Assembly (NCBI GenBank): GCA_020832135.1
Contig: JAFIFG010000071.1
Span: 1-44,564, forward strand
Direction of reading: 5' to 3'
DNA: 44,564 nucleotides
Origin: Clostridiaceae bacterium
GTDB taxonomy: Bacteria > Bacillota > Clostridia > Peptostreptococcales > Natronincolaceae
Shown: piece after piece, positions 36,157 to 42,474 of the stretch
Position numbering within the stretch: position 1 is the first letter of the stretch
Layout of the letters: each line of letters starts with the position of its first letter
Notes under the pieces: generated by a model
Told to the model about the DNA's origin: nothing
Seen by the model: the letters and a program-made list of their open reading frames with translations, nothing else
Database searches by the model: none
Made by a program: the position numbers and the translations under genes

Positions 36157-37434
36157 CTATTTTACTACTTCCTTTAATTTTTCTTCAAAATCTGGAAAGG
36201 AAATAGCTATACATTCACTGCCTTGAATTTTTACATCCCCTTCTGAAAATAACCCACCAATGGCCATAGCCATAGCAATTCTATGATCCCCATAGCTTTC
36301 TACAGTAGCACCTTTTATGGTATTTAATCCTTCTATTTCCATTCCATCAGATAGTTCAGTTACCCGTATTCCTAGTTTCTTCATCTCCATCACCATAGCG
36401 GTAATTCGATTGGTTTCCTTCACCTTTAACTCTTCTGCACCGGTAATAGTGGTTTTACCTTCTGCTGTAGCGGCAATCATGGCGATAACAGGGATTTCAT
36501 CTATTAGTCGTGGGATGATTTGCTTAGTTATTTTTATACCCTTTAATTTTTTACCTTTTATGTGAATATCTCCTATTTCTTCTCCACCACTGGTATAAAT
36601 ATTATCTATTTCAATTTCTGCTCCCATTTCCTTCAATACATCAATAATACCTGTACGGGTAGGATTTAATCCAACACCTTCTATTACTAAGTCGGAACCC
36701 TCTATAGCAGCAGCTGCCGCCATAAAGAAAGCAGCGGAGGAAATATCCCCCGGAACCTGAATGGCTTCACCATATAATTCAGAGGACTTTACTTTCACAG
36801 CCCCATCTTCTACAAAAACTTTCCCTCCAAGGGATTTTAGCATTCTTTCCGTATGATCTCGCGAAGTAACTTCTTCCCTTACAATGGTTTCTCCCTCGGC
36901 ATATAGCCCTGCCAATAATATAGCAGACTTTACTTGAGCACTTGAAACGGGAGATTGATAATCTATGGCCTTCAAATTCCCCCCCCTTATTACTAAAGGA
37001 GCTAGATTCCCATGATTCCGGCCTTCTATAAAAGAACCCATTTCTCTAAGGGGCTTTGCAATCCTAGCCATTGGTCGCTTTCTTAAGGAACCGTCTCCTG
37101 TGACAACTGTTAAGAATTCTTGCCCCGACAATATTCCTGAAATCAATCGCATAGTGGTTCCAGAATTTCCTGCATCTAGTATATCTTCAGGTTCCCTTAA
37201 TCCATATAATCCCTTACCTTCAACAATAATTTCTTTTCCTTTATCCTCAATCTCTATACCTAATCCACGAAAACAGGCTATGGTGCTGAGGCAATCCTCA
37301 CCCCTCAAAAATCCCGTAACAATGGACTTCCCCTTACTAATACTAGAGAGCATCACTGCTCTATGGGAGATGGATTTATCTCCTGGTACAGTAATTTCAC
37401 CCTCTAGTTTCTGTGCTTTGTTTGTTATTAACAT
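36157..37434 (-). CDS. aroA: 3-phosphoshikimate 1-carboxyvinyltransferase (EPSP synthase)
   Basis: A 425-residue enzyme that adds enolpyruvate from PEP to shikimate 3-phosphate. Motifs: GDKSISHRAVMLSSI, LDAGNSGTTMRLISG, GDGSLRKRPM, SSAQVKSAILLAGLYA, RDHTERML, and VKETNRITAM with SYGDHRIAMAMAIG. The LDAGNSGT(T/M)MR form with Ala in the glyphosate region resembles class II enzymes. An in-frame start at 37455 exists, but AAGGAGG lies between it and the ATG at 37434, so the shorter form is correct. The gene overlaps the 3' end of tyrA by 38 bp. Confidence 0.96.
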   Translation of the reverse strand: MLITNKAQKLEGEITVPGDKSISHRAVMLSSISKGKSIVTGFLRGEDCLSTIACFRGLGIEIEDKGKEIIVEGKGLYGLREPEDILDAGNSGTTMRLISGILSGQEFLTVVTGDGSLRKRPMARIAKPLREMGSFIEGRNHGNLAPLVIRGGNLKAIDYQSPVSSAQVKSAILLAGLYAEGETIVREEVTSRDHTERMLKSLGGKVFVEDGAVKVKSSELYGEAIQVPGDISSAAFFMAAAAAIEGSDLVIEGVGLNPTRTGIIDVLKEMGAEIEIDNIYTSGGEEIGDIHIKGKKLKGIKITKQIIPRLIDEIPVIAMIAATAEGKTTITGAEELKVKETNRITAMVMEMKKLGIRVTELSDGMEIEGLNTIKGATVESYGDHRIAMAMAIGGLFSEGDVKIQGSECIAISFPDFEEKLKEVVK

Positions 37435-38548
37435 GATCACTATTACCTCCTTCACGATAGGCTACAGCAAAACCATAGACCTGTAATAAATGAAGTGCCT
37501 TCTTCTGCTGCACCTCTGAATCTAATCCAATTCTTATGGCACCCTTTTCTCCTTCCCTTGCATGAAGAATTTCTATTTCTTTTATGTTGATAGTATTACT
37601 ACCCATCAACTGTGTAAGTTCCCCCAATACTCCCGGGCGGTCTTCAACATCTATGCTTAATTCGTATAAGGGAGGTATGTAGTCCCTTACAGTATGAGGT
37701 ATGCTATTTCTAATCATTTTTGCTTTCTGTAGATTCTCTAATATTTCCTCTTGGTTTTCCTTTTGCAATATTTCTTTAAATTCCCCCAACATTGTTTCGA
37801 GAGTACCTATACCATCTAATACTTCTTCTTTATTTAAAAGAAATATCTCCCTCCACATTTGAGGATTTCCAGCAGCAATACGGGTAGTATCTCTGAATCC
37901 ACCACCTACAAAGGGAATATAGGAAATGCCATTTTTCCGATCCACCATATTGGCTAGTAGCACAGCTGTTAAGTGGGGTATATGGCTAATTTGTGCCACG
38001 ATTTGATCATGTTCTTCTACACTCACCACCACAGGATATGCACCTAAAGCTTCAACAAATCTCTGCAGTTTTTTTAGTATATCTTCAGCAATTTGTTTTC
38101 TAGGTGTTAGGAAATAATAGGCATTTTCATATAGAAAGGGGGTGGCGGCTTCTATCCCACCCTTTTCTGATCCAGCCATAGGGTGTCCTCCTATAAATTG
38201 CACTCCCTCTGGCAAATACTTTTCTGCCACCTTAGCCACATAACCCTTTACACTACCGACATCCGTAACAATAACATCGTTGGATAATAGATGTCCTACC
38301 TGTTGAAGCATTTCCTCATAGTATCCCACAGGAGTAGCCAAAATAATTAATTCTGCCTTCTCAACAGACTCCTGTAAGTTTTTAGCTATAACATCTATAG
38401 CACCTATTCCTTTGGCATGCTGTACTGTCTTTTCCGATACATCGTAACCAATTACTTCACAATTATAGTCAGACTTCTTTAGAGCTAATGCCATAGATCC
38501 CCCTATTAACCCTAATCCTATAATAGTTATTCTTTTAAAGTTCTTCAA
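37397..38548 (-). CDS. tyrA: Prephenate dehydrogenase
   Basis: A 383-residue NAD(P)-dependent enzyme leading to tyrosine. The Rossmann motif IIGLGLIGGSMALALKKS is followed by ATPVGYYEEML, VTDVGSVKG, FIGGHPMAGSEKGGIEAA, and the catalytic region EHDQIVAQISHIPHLTAVLLA. A C-terminal ACT domain (about 295-365, YELSIDVEDRPGVLGELTQLMG) probably senses tyrosine. The start is TTG with AAGGGA upstream. The last residues (GGNSDHVNNKQSTETRG) are encoded across the aroA start and are likely dispensable. It is the first gene of the aromatic operon. Confidence 0.95.
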   Translation of the reverse strand: MKNFKRITIIGLGLIGGSMALALKKSDYNCEVIGYDVSEKTVQHAKGIGAIDVIAKNLQESVEKAELIILATPVGYYEEMLQQVGHLLSNDVIVTDVGSVKGYVAKVAEKYLPEGVQFIGGHPMAGSEKGGIEAATPFLYENAYYFLTPRKQIAEDILKKLQRFVEALGAYPVVVSVEEHDQIVAQISHIPHLTAVLLANMVDRKNGISYIPFVGGGFRDTTRIAAGNPQMWREIFLLNKEEVLDGIGTLETMLGEFKEILQKENQEEILENLQKAKMIRNSIPHTVRDYIPPLYELSIDVEDRPGVLGELTQLMGSNTINIKEIEILHAREGEKGAIRIGLDSEVQQKKALHLLQVYGFAVAYREGGNSDHVNNKQSTETRG

Positions 38549-38592: not shown

Positions 38593-38621
38593 ACTTTAAT
38601 GTATAATTACAGAATTGTCAA
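38593..38621 (-). promoter_or_regulatory. Promoter of the tyrA-aroA-pheA-aroC-aroB-aroK operon
   Basis: -35 TTGACA (38616-38621), 17-bp spacer, -10 TAAAGT (38593-38598), about 45 bp before tyrA. I found no T-box or leader peptide in this short 5' region. Confidence 0.65.
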
Positions 38622-38647: not shown

Positions 38648-39058
38648 TTAAACACAGCTAAAGACCCGTTCTTCTGAAGTACTATCTTGAAGACCAAGCT
38701 CTATCTCTTCAATGATAGCACTGCCCACAATAATACCCTCACATAGCCCTTTTAGCTTTGACACCATAGCAGCATTACCTATACCAAAGTCTATAGCTAA
38801 AGGTATATCGGTATATTTTCTTATCTGCTGTATAAACTCCTCTAGATTCCTTTGAAAGTCCTCCCTTTTTCCAGTCACCCTCATGGAGGAAATACAATAA
38901 ACAAAACCTTCTGCATTGCTTACAATTTCTTGAATTCTGTCGTCGGAGGTGGGAGCCACCAGAGGTATCAGGTCTATAGTAGCAGTAATATAGGTTATTA
39001 AAGCTTTTTTACCAGTTTGTCTTAATAGCTGTAATTTATTTCTTATTCTACTATTCAT
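38648..39058 (-). pseudogene. trpA: Tryptophan synthase alpha subunit with a large internal deletion
   Basis: The frame encodes only 136 residues, against about 260 in TrpA. It begins normally (LLRQTGKKALITYITA, the first beta strand) and then jumps straight to IDLIPLVAPTSDDRIQEI, which in TrpA lies some 110 residues later. It continues to the normal C-terminal part (GFVYCISSMRVTGKREDF, IPLAIDFGIGNAAMV, GIIVGSAIIEEI). The missing block holds both catalytic residues (the Glu after strand 2 and the Asp of the IPFSDP loop) and half of the barrel. The conserved GVTG motif has also become RVTG. GGGAGGAG and the 8-bp overlap with trpB are intact. The product cannot cleave indole-glycerol phosphate. 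Confidence 0.9.
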
Positions 39059-40247
39059 CCTTATCTCCTCCCAATATTTTTGAAATAGTGTGTATATCCT
39101 TATCTCCTCGACCCGACAAATTTAAAACAATAATATCTTCTTTTTTAGTTTGTGGTGCTAGCTTTATTAAATAGGCAATTGCATGGGAGCTCTCTAGTGC
39201 TGGGATAATCCCCTCCGTTTTGGTTAAAAATTCAAAAGCTTCCACTGCTTCTTCATCAGTTATAGCAATATAGTTAACTCTGCCAATACTATGAAAATAT
39301 GCATGCTCTGGTCCGATCCCTGGGTAATCTAAACCAGCGGATATAGAATGTGCCGGCATAATCTGTCCCTGATCATCCTGTAGCATATAGGTCATCATCC
39401 CATGAATCACACCTCTACTTCCCTTCGTTATGGTGGCGGCATGCTGATCTGTATCTAATCCTAAGCCTCCTGCTTCTACTCCATATATCTCTACCTCCTC
39501 TTCTTGGTGGAAGGGATAAAAGAGTCCCATGGCATTACTGCCTCCTCCTACACAGGCCACTAGATAATTAGGTAATCTACCTTCTTTCTTAAGTATTTGC
39601 TGTTTTACCTCATCCCCAATGATTCTTTGAAAATCCCTAACCATAGTGGGGTAGGGATGAGGTCCCACCACTGAACCAATAACATAGAAAGTATCCTCTA
39701 CATTTGCCACCCAATCTCTCAAAGCTTCATTGGTGGCATCCTTTAATGTTGCTGTTCCCGAGGTAACAGGTACCACCTTTGCCCCCAGCATTTTCATTTT
39801 AAAAACATTCAAAGCCTGCCTTTGGACATCCTCTGCCCCCATATATACTTCACACTTCAAGTCAAAAATAGCACATATGGTGGCGGTGGCTACCCCATGC
39901 TGTCCCGCCCCCGTCTCAGCTATGATTCGTTTCTTTCCCATTCTCCTAGCCAATAGCACCTGACCTATGACATTATTGATCTTATGGGCTCCCGTATGAT
40001 TTAAATCCTCTCTTTTAAGGTATATTCTCCCTCCCCCCAGTTTCTGGGTTAAGTTTTCAGCATAGTACAGGGGTGTAGGCCTTCCTGAATATTCCTTTAC
40101 ATAATATTGATAGTCCTCTTGAAATTCTTCACTCTCCTTGGCTTTAACAAATTCCTCTTCTAGTTCTATTAAAGCATTCATTAAGGTTTCTGGTACAAAT
40201 TGTCCCCCAAATTCTCCAAATCTCTTAGGTAATGTCTTTGCTATCAT
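39051..40247 (-). CDS. trpB: Tryptophan synthase beta subunit
   Basis: A 398-residue PLP enzyme that joins indole and serine to give tryptophan. It is complete: [17 protein letters not shown], the PLP lysine in [34 protein letters not shown] (catalytic Glu), the phosphate loop [14 protein letters not shown] and the C-terminal [13 protein letters not shown]. It is of the TrpB1 type, which normally works with TrpA. Here it is the only intact gene of the trp operon: trpA is gutted and trpD and trpF are fragments. It may act alone on external indole. GAGGGG precedes the ATG. Confidence 0.96.
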
Positions 40248-40357
40248 GCTTTTCCCCTCACCTTTCCTATAAATTTTTTTATTTTATAAAAATCCTTATA
40301 TCCGTTGGTTTCTACACCACTACTGACTTCCCCTTGCTTTGCCAATGCTTCTTTGAG
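40244..40357 (-). pseudogene. trpF: 3' remnant of phosphoribosylanthranilate isomerase gene
   Basis: The last 36 codons of TrpF remain in frame up to the TGA that overlaps the trpB start. They contain [20 protein letters not shown], the conserved C-terminal segment (D-x-SSGVE-x-x-G-x-KD) that binds phosphate. There is no start codon; the frame begins directly after the stop codon of the trpD remnant. trpC, which normally lies between trpD and trpF, is absent, so one deletion probably removed most of trpF, all of trpC and the end of the trpD spacer. Confidence 0.85.
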
Positions 40358-40495
40358 TTAACCTCTACTGATGGTAATGAACTGATTTAATTTTTCCAAT
40401 GCTAGCCCCATATCCAATGCCTCCTTAACCTTATCTATCCCTTCCTCCAAGCTACCTGCAGCCTTTCTCACATAGATGGCGGCTCCAGAATTCAT
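40358..40495 (-). pseudogene. trpD: 3' remnant of anthranilate phosphoribosyltransferase gene
   Basis: The 45-codon frame encodes MNSGAAIYVRKAAGSLEEGI, DKVKEALDMGLALEKLNQFI and TISRG, which is the C-terminal end of TrpD (the conserved N-x-GAAxYV segment and the helix ending ALEKL). The remaining 290 or so residues, with the PRPP- and anthranilate-binding sites, are absent, and so are trpE and trpG. GAGAGGTGG lies 10 bases before its ATG, so the fragment may still be translated. Confidence 0.87.
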
Positions 40496-40561
40496 CGTGG
40501 AGTTTCCACCTCTCTATTCTATTTGATTTTGTATTTTGGTCTTATCTTAGCTTTAGCCAAA

Positions 40562-40600
40562 CAAAAAAGCACTCCATCCCTATTACTAAGGACGAAATGC
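40562..40600 (-). terminator. Second T-box terminator
   Basis: Minus strand: CATTTCGTCCTTAGTAATAG then GGATGGAGTG and a T run. This is the downstream copy of the T-box terminator/antiterminator module, containing the conserved TTCGTCC segment. Confidence 0.78.
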
Positions 40601-40605
40601 TTAAA

Positions 40606-40660
40606 TTCCGTGTTGCCACCTCTATTGGATAGATCTATCTACTAAAATGGTCTGCAACAA
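40606..40660 (-). promoter_or_regulatory. Duplicated T-box module (Stem III plus antiterminator)
   Basis: AGGTGGCAACACGGAA (40606-40621) repeats the T-box sequence of the full element upstream. It is preceded by the short palindrome GATAGATCTATC, a likely Stem III. There is no Stem I or specifier loop in front of it: only about 65 nt separate it from the first terminator. It is therefore a partial tandem duplication. Confidence 0.75.
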
Positions 40661-40687
40661 ATAAGTACTGCCAGAGATATTGAAGCA

Positions 40688-40994
40688 ATAAAAAAACACT
40701 TCTATCCCTGCTATAGGACGAAATGTTCTATTCCGTGTTGCCACCCATTTTAGATAGTATATATACTATCCCACTCTTTTCAGATACGGAAATAGTTCCA
40801 CTATTTCGATACCCTGCCTCTATAACGTGAGACCTACGTCAAACGATACTCTCCAAGGATTTCCCGCTGCTTCTCATGGAACCATTCGATAAGTTCATCG
40901 GCATTGGGCTTTCACCATCCCCAATTCGCTTTGGCTTAAAAACTTATTTACTCTTTCCAATCATAGAATTTAATAATCATTTCAACATCAATTT
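40688..40994 (-). promoter_or_regulatory. Tryptophan-specific T-box riboswitch of the trp operon
   Basis: Minus-strand order: GCGAATTGGGGATGGTGAAAG with CCCAA (distal Stem I), then the specifier loop in ATCGAATGGTTCCATGAG with the codon TGG (Trp), the linker ACGTTATAGAGG, the Stem III palindrome GATAGTATATATACTATC, the T-box GGGTGGCAACACGGAA (40731-40746), and the terminator CATTTCGTCC...GAAGTG with seven T residues (40690-40724). Uncharged tRNA-Trp should pair with TGG and with the T-box, giving antitermination when tryptophan is scarce. It now drives mainly trpB. Confidence 0.92.
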
Positions 40995-41000
40995 TTTTCA

Positions 41001-41029
41001 ATTTTAATATGAACTTTCATTTTTGTCAA
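41001..41029 (-). promoter_or_regulatory. trp operon promoter
   Basis: -35 TTGACA (41024-41029), 17-bp spacer, -10 TAAAAT (41001-41006). It is near-consensus and about 10 bp before the T-box leader. Confidence 0.82.
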
Positions 41030-41475: not shown

Positions 41476-42474
41476 ATGGTAATTGTTATGAAACCTAATG
41501 CACCACAGGAGGTAATTGAAAAGATCAAGAAAAAAATGGAGAGTTTAGGATGTCAAGTTCACATGTCCCAAGGAGAAAACTACTTTTTATTAGGCTTAGT
41601 AGGAGACACCAGTAGAATCGATCCTAGTCAAATTGAAGCAAATCAGCATGTGGATAAGCTTTTAAGGGTTCAACATCCCTTCAAATTAGCCAGCAGACAT
41701 TTTCACCCTGAGGATAGTATTATTGAGGTGGATGGTCTTAAAATAGGAGGTGGCAATGTCACCGTCATAGCTGGCCCCTGTTCTGTAGAAAGCGAAGAAC
41801 AGCTTATGACCATTGCTAATGCTGTGAAGATTGAAGGAGCTCAAATGCTAAGAGGTGGGGCCTTTAAGCCTAGAACATCTCCCTACAGTTTCCAAGGTAT
41901 GGGGGAAGAAGGATTAAAGTTATTGAAAAAGGCTAAAGAGGTTACTGGTATGCCTATTGTAACAGAGGTAATGTGTCAGGATACCTTTGATATTGTAGAG
42001 GAATACGCTGATATCCTTCAAATCGGTGCTAGGAATATGCAGAATTTCCCTCTTTTAAAAAGGGCTGGAAAATCTAATAAACCTATTTTATTGAAAAGAG
42101 GTCTTTCTGCAACCATAGAAGAACTTTTGATGTCTGCTGAATACATTATGGCAGAAGGAAATAGTAAGGTTATTCTTTGCGAGAGGGGCATTAGAACCTT
42201 CGAGACCTACACTAGAAACACCTTAGACCTTAGTGCCGTACCTATGATTAAAGAATTAAGTCATCTCCCTATTATTATTGACCCTAGTCATGCCACTGGG
42301 AAATGGTCTATGGTAGAGCCTTTATCTAAGGGGGCTATTGCAGTAGGTGCTGATGGACTGATTATCGAAGTACACCATCAGCCAGAGATGGCTATGTCGG
42401 ATGGTGCTCAATCCCTTAAACCTGCTAAATTTGCTAAATTGATGAGGGCAATCGAAAGAATTGCAGCTATATAA
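41476..42474 (+). CDS. aroF: 3-deoxy-7-phosphoheptulonate (DAHP) synthase
   Basis: A 332-residue type I-beta DAHP synthase, the entry enzyme of the shikimate pathway (PEP plus erythrose 4-phosphate). Residues 1-70 form the ferredoxin-like regulatory domain found in Thermotoga-type enzymes (MKPNAPQEVIEKIKKKMESLG), which binds Phe/Tyr for feedback. The TIM-barrel part shows VIAGPCSVES, LRGGAFKPRTSPYSFQGMG, MPIVTEVM, LQIGARNMQNF, LKRGLSAT, LCERGIRTFE and IIDPSHATGK. AAAGGAGGAG precedes the ATG. It is the only copy in the window and lies divergent from the trp/aro genes, behind the putative attenuator. Confidence 0.97.
   Translation: MVIVMKPNAPQEVIEKIKKKMESLGCQVHMSQGENYFLLGLVGDTSRIDPSQIEANQHVDKLLRVQHPFKLASRHFHPEDSIIEVDGLKIGGGNVTVIAGPCSVESEEQLMTIANAVKIEGAQMLRGGAFKPRTSPYSFQGMGEEGLKLLKKAKEVTGMPIVTEVMCQDTFDIVEEYADILQIGARNMQNFPLLKRAGKSNKPILLKRGLSATIEELLMSAEYIMAEGNSKVILCERGIRTFETYTRNTLDLSAVPMIKELSHLPIIIDPSHATGKWSMVEPLSKGAIAVGADGLIIEVHHQPEMAMSDGAQSLKPAKFAKLMRAIERIAAI

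Follow-up and report, generated by a model that had tools for sequence, protein, structure and literature searches.

A T-box-controlled trpB standing alone in an apparently eroded tryptophan operon of a Clostridiaceae bacterium

We analysed a window of 44,564 nucleotides (GenBank assembly GCA_020832135.1, contig JAFIFG010000071.1) from a Clostridiaceae bacterium of the family Natronincolaceae, in which a tryptophan T-box leader is followed by a complete trpB gene, and the other genes of a trpEGDCFBA operon are either missing or present as remnants. In our judgement, a recent loss of de novo tryptophan synthesis has probably left here a T-box-controlled TrpB for the salvage of indole. An earlier note on this DNA had proposed either a recent loss of this kind or selection for a stand-alone TrpB using external indole, and we examined both proposals against the rest of the genome and against related genomes.

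Results

Reduction of the trp operon to trpB

The locus was annotated as follows, from the leader downstream.

41001..41029, minus strand: promoter-like site TTGACA-17-TAAAAT (11/12) for the T-box leader, from a consensus scan
40711..40973, minus strand: T-box leader with Stem I, UGG specifier and first antiterminator (RF00230, 112 bits; gathering 93)
40684..40735, minus strand: first terminator hairpin (fold -15.6 kcal/mol, then a T run; absent from the terminator scan list)
40562..40645 (approximate), minus strand: second antiterminator/terminator platform, lacking a Stem I of its own (second GGTGGCAACACGG element; aligned in the leaders of eight relatives)
40358..40495, minus strand: trpD 3' remnant, 45 codons (PF00591, E 0.0016, 18.5 bits, below the cut-off of 27)
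40244..40345, minus strand: trpF 3' remnant, about 33 codons (PF00697, E 7e-5, 23 bits against a cut-off of 22.7; alignment)
39051..40247, minus strand: trpB, complete, 398 amino acids (TIGR00263, 670 bits against a cut-off of 392)
38648..39058, minus strand: trpA remnant (Pfam, E 4e-29; PF00290 covers profile positions 140-242 only)

The completeness of trpB, claimed in the earlier note, was borne out: what we take to be the pyridoxal phosphate lysine and the active-site motifs are present in an ungapped alignment with LBCA-TrpB and in an alignment with eight relatives. The protein is 82-85% identical to the operon-encoded TrpB of seven relatives, and its closest PDB match is LBCA-TrpB (5ey5, 644 bits; next match 577 bits). 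With TIGR01415 (trpB_rel, TrpB2) it scored 198 bits against a cut-off of 518.85, and it is thus not a TrpB2.

The genes trpE, trpG and trpC are absent from the locus, as previously described. The trpD remnant has the 45 codons reported before; although weak by profile alone, it is supported by the gene order, by 57-73% identity to the end of intact TrpD from seven relatives and by an alignment of the junction. For trpF, about 33 codons remain rather than the 36 first counted, and this remnant holds the likely ribosome site of trpB; its stop and the start of trpB overlap in the sequence ATGA. Neither of the two short remnants, trpF and trpD, appeared among the genome-wide matches to PF00697 and TIGR01245.

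In the trpA remnant, residues 1-26 are fused in frame to residue 147 onward, as judged against intact TrpA from seven relatives (266 residues in five of the same family). The internal deletion proposed in the earlier note is therefore real, and its size is 120 codons (relative residues 27-146) instead of about 110; it includes the ELGIPYSDPLADGP stretch, which presumably holds the catalytic acids. Two further lesions were not in that account: the GVTG motif reads RVTG, and the 136-codon open frame stops nine codons before the homologous end, with homologous reading resumed past the stop (KLYEAKTIT). The remnant scored 88.5 bits with TIGR00262, below the cut-off of 102.35. Glu49 and Asp60 are given as catalytic in TrpA (PMC8187860) and the loop-6 GVTG motif as highly conserved (PMC6608616). 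With its catalytic Glu/Asp region missing and its GVTG loop altered, the remnant is predicted not to be a functional TrpA. The operon thus appears to have been shortened by at least three deletions, one from the leader to trpD, one from trpD to trpF and one within trpA.

Loss of the pathway from the genome

The genome (4.0 Mb; 155 contigs; a draft assembly scored 100% complete and 2.29% contaminated), of which the window is one entire contig, was searched with PF00290 (trpA), PF00218 (trpC), PF00697 (trpF), PF04715 (trpE) and TIGR01245 (trpD). As a result, no complete trp operon was found elsewhere by the trpA, trpC, trpF and trpE searches: the trpA remnant was the only PF00290 match, and PF00218 and PF00697 gave no match at E 0.001. 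PF04715 matched a single protein, which we considered as a second trpE and rejected, since it sits between pabA- and pabC-like genes in a folate operon and is thus pabB; these neighbours (pabA, pabC and fol genes) were named from open reading frame (ORF) translations. The search for a second TrpB or TrpB2-like protein likewise found none in the genome, the other matches to TrpB being weak (E 1.8e-8 and 4.4e-8).

The TIGR01245 search detected a TrpD-family protein on another contig (C54; L144:8311-9435) with 283 bits, above the trpD cut-off, and one more match, a weak one, that also lies outside the window. The former was rejected as a replacement for trpD: its gene adjoins cobT and a zinc alcohol dehydrogenase gene, no other trp gene is nearby, and the pathway is not restored by it. 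No second TrpD over the cut-off was found in any of the 59 relatives described below, and the protein may serve another phosphoribosyl transfer.

Taken at face value, this gene content suggests that the strain has lost de novo synthesis of tryptophan from chorismate. The loss of the pathway proposed in the earlier note is further supported as a recent one because the relatives keep an intact operon at the same site and the TrpB retains residues of the TrpA-linked type (both below).

Intact operons and the same end state in relatives

The comparison set consisted of 59 relatives and the genome of the window (G000), 60 genomes in all, with no genus mate of the latter among them. A TrpB was called strong at E 1e-60 or better against that of the window; weak PALP-family matches and distant matches near E 1e-30 to 1e-35 were left out of the counts. 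Two solo TrpBs cut at contig ends (G041, G049), two near one (G013, G059) and one that is maybe an assembly gap (G030, where trpC and trpD sit at the edge of a contig) were kept. The trpB stops in G017 (C38) and G026 (C78) are natural ends, the open frames there running to 391 and 390 codons.

An intact trpEGDCFBA operon is present in five genomes of the same family, from four other genera (G001, G003, G005, G012 and G015). In all of these except G003, aroF and tyrA-aroA-pheA flank the operon as they flank the remnants in the window, so that the comparison called for in the earlier note located the complete operon at the equivalent place in four same-family genomes. In three further family members (G004, G009, G017) trpA adjoins trpB, and the operon also occurs in G023 and G029, of other families.

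The end state of the window recurs as well. In G010, of the same family, a T-box and trpB lie at the same site between aroF and tyrA, with the same tyrA-aroA-pheA order and aroF on the same side, and no match to trpA, trpC or trpF was found in that genome; in G034, of another family, a T-box and trpB stand alone. Overall, a strong TrpB occurs in 32 of the 59 relatives; a full trpA adjoins it in 17, and the other 15 have no full operon-type trpA. Six operon genomes (G001, G004, G005, G015, G017, G026) also encode another TrpB, which stands alone and has an identity of about 65%. When 20-kb stretches around eight of the 21 other solo loci (L029, L030, L032-L035, L040 and L041) were scanned with Rfam, a T-box was found directly ahead of trpB in all but L040. 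T-box-trpB units thus appear to recur in the order.

The losses in G000 and G010 are likely to be independent, as judged from their differing remnants and from the state of residue 177, but a clade of the two was not rejected by the approximately unbiased (AU) test (p up to 0.58 for tyrA-aroA-pheA and up to 0.37 for TrpB). G034 is separate from both, being sister to the operon-bearing G023 with support 100.

A strong trpB is present in all relatives with PF00697 over its cut-off (17/17), with PF00218 (18/18) and with PF00290 above 200 bits (17/17). G006 is an exception, with a weaker TrpA-like protein (139 bits; C2:89469-90161) and no strong trpB. A comparable TrpA-like protein (118 bits; C32:36601-37308) occurs in G037, one of the 15 genomes above, on another contig than trpB. 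Both lie away from any strong trpB and are possibly indole-releasing or unrelated barrel enzymes.

Residues 173 and 177 of partnered and solo TrpB

We then aligned 39 TrpB sequences, 17 of them trpA-linked and 22 unlinked, the window included; positions 169, 173 and 177 were matched to Salmonella beta K167, N171 and R175 by their spacing with K169. The window TrpB holds K169, N173 and R177 in helix 6, typical of TrpA-linked enzymes (by codon count, residue 173 is encoded at 39731-39729 and residue 177 at 39719-39717). Arg177 is found in 17/17 linked sequences and in the window, and in none of the 21 other solo TrpBs. Residue 173 is Asn or Ser in all 17 linked sequences, whereas 20 of the 21 solo TrpBs other than that of the window have Asp.

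A second set, drawn from one GTDB genome per species and comprising the best 80 loci by match to the window TrpB, gave a similar picture. Arg177 is present in 73 of 74 loci with trpA within 4 kb, the exception being a Lys in Clostridium psychrophilum (L057). The six loci without trpA within 4 kb have Arg in five cases and Ala in one; four of the five Arg177 genomes have trpA elsewhere (L069, L070, L075, L083), some flanks being shortened by contig ends, and trpA was not found in the assembly of the fifth (L062, on a 5-kb contig of a metagenome-assembled genome) or in the genome with Ala177 (L077). In both sample sets, residue 177 thus tells TrpBs with a partner from those without one, apart from a few exceptions.

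According to PMC6608616, the equivalent Arg189 of some subunits of the Mycobacterium enzyme binds the catalytic Asp at its carbonyl, a contact also known from Salmonella, and the equivalent Lys181 binds an alpha-subunit Asp; the Arg is too distant in a Streptococcus structure, and neither contact is seen in that of Francisella. Simulations of an A198W variant, reported in PMC8187860, gave R175-Thr183 and N171-Gln65 contacts, the former being lost in the wild-type runs. The role of residue 177 is thus likely to be a contact with TrpA that varies between structures, and the window TrpB seems to have lost its partner while retaining partner-type residues.

By the same residues, the window TrpB falls outside the old stand-alone clade of the order, which includes the second TrpB of G001, G004, G005 and G015 and the TrpBs of G014, G027 and G040. 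These also lack an adjacent trpA, and several have a Trp T-box, but they carry D173, F284, no R177 and a one-platform T-box (five leaders checked), whereas the window has N173, R177, M284 and two platforms. At the six positions tied to stand-alone activity in PMC11917138 (E36, E42, T53, S187, A279 and M280 in LBCA numbering), the window TrpB reads E, Q, T, S, M and M, matching four and differing at Q47 and M284. The old clade departs there as well, with F284 in 19/19 and N58 in 15/19 members.

The T-box leader and its second platform

The earlier note had called the T-box and promoter well preserved, and this held for the T-box, with the Rfam match listed above, ahead of which lies the promoter-like site. 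The specifier reads GAA-UGG (Trp), and the GGTGGC element is present. Over the two strands, the consensus scan gave 12 promoter-like sites, where 10.8 would be expected from shuffled sequence, and the leader site is supported mainly by its position 28 bases ahead of the T-box, since the counts are near the shuffle level.

The second platform had gone unmentioned in that account. Its terminator, at 40602-40567 on the minus strand, is a terminator scan match with a fold of -21.4 kcal/mol. One Stem I with two platforms was recognised by pattern in the leaders of the window, G001, G003, G010, G012, G015, G029 and G034, and by alignment in those of G005, whose first platform is one base off the pattern, and G023. 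In G001, G003, G005, G012, G015, G023 and G029 this T-box leads an operon, and a single platform is found in all five old-clade solo leaders examined (G001b, G004b, G005b, G015b and G027). The two-platform leader is thus probably ancestral, and its presence ahead of the window trpB argues that this solo gene derives from a biosynthetic operon and not from the old solo clade.

As a separate observation, T-boxes are classed in the consulted portion of PMC12452182 as tandem full units or as several sensors with one platform; the Trp T-box of the window (40973-40562, minus strand; related leaders in L022-L030), with one Stem I and two serial platforms, matches neither class described there.

Evolutionary rates

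On a fixed tree, the branch of the trpA remnant is 0.347, compared with 0.318 and 0.280 for intact trpA of G003 and G012, and the trpB branches are 0.111 (G000), 0.118 (G003) and 0.093 (G012). The dN/dS over the remnant region is 0.13-0.23 for pairs with G000 and 0.07-0.16 for intact pairs, a weak excess, with synonymous sites near saturation in these tests. For the trpB-to-aro branch ratio, G000 has a value of 0.45, inside the range of the intact operons (0.27-1.1), and G010 has 1.36. The loss of the operon is suggested to be recent because the TrpA remnant is still readable and not clearly accelerated and because TrpB keeps K169, N173 and R177.

Tryptophan and indole supply

The genome contains 22 T-boxes, three of which, read by eye, have UGG after GAA: those before trpB, trpS (L133, a Trp/Tyr-type tRNA synthetase read as trpS) and trpP. 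The last gene accounts for the Trp transporter sought in the earlier note, a TrpP with its own Trp T-box (L132; PF17099, 151 bits). The search for tnaA gave a tryptophanase-family lyase (NF009709, 734 bits). Its closest match in the PDB is the tryptophanase 8sij (719 bits), but it scored below cut-off with all equivalog models for tryptophanase and for tyrosine phenol-lyase. Such genes occur in 39 of the 60 genomes.

Flanking aromatic genes

Further features around the locus are listed below.

41476..42474, plus strand: aroF, DAHP synthase, on the upstream flank (PF00793, E 2.7e-83)
38593..38621, minus strand: promoter-like site TTGACA-17-TAAAGT (10/12) before tyrA-aroA-pheA, at the old trpA end, from the consensus scan
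37397..38548, minus strand: tyrA, syntenic flank (Pfam)
37455-36157, minus strand: aroA, after tyrA (Pfam)
36141-35320, minus strand: pheA, after aroA (Pfam)

Both TTGACA and TAAAGT of the tyrA site are kept in the five relatives aligned (5/5). The scan list contains no minus-strand terminator between trpB and tyrA, and read-through into tyrA is thus possible. Retention of the T-box for the downstream tyrA genes is nevertheless less likely, and trpB is the most plausible target of the T-box, because tyrA carries its own conserved promoter-like site.

Two tandem copies of aroF lie beside the trp operon in G001 and G012 (L022, L025), compared with one in the window. By ORF list reading only, an ORF beside folate genes on another contig of G000 (C62; L145:1739-2515) resembles a second DAHP synthase.

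Discussion

The reading that we prefer, of a recent loss that spared TrpB for indole salvage, would work as follows. A classical T-box-controlled trpEGDCFBA operon would have been cut down to T-box-trpB, so that uncharged tRNA-Trp would cause antitermination and TrpB would be made, joining indole and serine to give tryptophan. The indole would come from outside or from the strain's own tryptophanase-family lyase, and in parallel the other Trp T-boxes would raise TrpP and TrpS. Selection for a stand-alone TrpB on outside indole, the other proposal of the earlier note, is plausible because a T-box with trpB alone recurs in relatives. We regard as unlikely a wider version of this idea, in which the trp operons of the order repeatedly erode to T-box-trpB and the resulting unit acts as a switch for recapturing indole, counter to the tryptophanase of the same cell. 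Tryptophan would be broken down to indole when abundant and, once tRNA-Trp became uncharged, made again from indole and serine; the window would then be the first stage, before loss of the TrpA-docking arginine.

Several observations weigh against indole salvage by a retained TrpB. The rates give no contrast that would mark post-deletion selection on trpB, the remnant branch being little longer than the intact ones, presumably because too little time has passed since the deletions. The 21 other solo TrpBs are not independent, 19 of them forming one clade with support 100, so that the independent solo events amount to this clade, G034 and perhaps G010; some solo calls, such as that of G030, are perhaps assembly gaps. 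Matches at the same four of the six stand-alone positions in the intact-operon relatives G001 and G003 speak against adaptation, and these residues are therefore inherited, with no response to the operon loss. No search aimed at trpG was made, and a pabA-like gene adjoins pabB. Finally, tryptophanase-family genes occur in 12 of 16 solo-only genomes, 14 of 17 operon genomes and 13 of 27 genomes without a strong trpB; tryptophanase as a special indole source was rejected, the gene not being enriched in the solo-TrpB genomes.

Among the alternatives, plain decay, in which the cell has gone over to imported tryptophan, the whole locus is degenerating and trpB has merely not been hit yet, strikes us as rather improbable. 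A TrpP under a Trp T-box would supply the import, the remnants show little excess divergence, as if the events were recent, and a strong trpB is lacking in 8 of 20 family genomes. Against this stand three separate deletions that lie around trpB yet leave it, its start region and the T-box untouched, together with the persistence of T-box-trpB in G010 and G034 and the old age of the clade holding the 19 other solo TrpBs; moreover, apart from G006, every relative with trpF, trpC or a high-scoring trpA has a strong trpB. It is very unlikely that the in-frame trpA remnant is still made and aids TrpB: its open frame and a branch length not clearly raised would allow this, but residues of about 27-146 are gone, and with them loop 2 and Asn104, Phe107 and Asp130 of the subunit interface (Salmonella numbering, equivalence approximate; PMC8187860); in addition, the GVTG motif is disrupted and the C-terminus prematurely truncated. 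An assembly artefact that collapsed intact-operon reads into a false short version, conceivable for a draft of 155 contigs, is likewise very unlikely given three different junctions, the additional point lesions of the trpA remnant and the lack of stray trpA, trpC or trpF in an assembly scored as complete.

The locus thus resembles the T-box-regulated trpEGDCFBA operon of Bacillota in its leader, UGG specifier, remnant gene order, trpF-trpB ATGA overlap and flanking aro genes, but differs in that only trpB is complete. Indole-salvaging auxotrophs such as Chlamydia trachomatis (trpRBA) and the gut variant A1 (TrpAB; PMC9026213) likewise keep the terminal enzyme after upstream loss, but retain TrpA with TrpB, whereas the TrpA of the window is broken. 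Indole salvage in auxotrophs by a residual tryptophan synthase is on record for both, the gut genomes having TrpAB only. Two further papers attribute the conversion of outside indole to tryptophan in bifidobacteria to TrpB (PMC11085991) and place a T-box ahead of a trpB-like gene in Dehalococcoides (PMC2494555). The Pelodictyon luteolum and LBCA-TrpB enzymes are stand-alone-active TrpB1 proteins (PMC11917138), with which the window TrpB, a putative stand-alone enzyme, compares as described above. Among the titles and abstract openings in the short, open-licence lists consulted, none dealt with an eroded trp operon of this kind or with the residue-177 contrast.

The concept of a leftover salvage enzyme is thus already known, and the window seems to be an intermediate caught early in the change. 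A natural series is suggested, from linked TrpB through the freshly widowed TrpB of the window, and perhaps those of G010 and G034, to the old solo clade, and the residue-177 contrast opens a way to test, in natural enzymes, how allosteric dependence is lost. The locus is also a caution against reading tryptophan prototrophy from the presence of a TrpB gene or of a Trp T-box.

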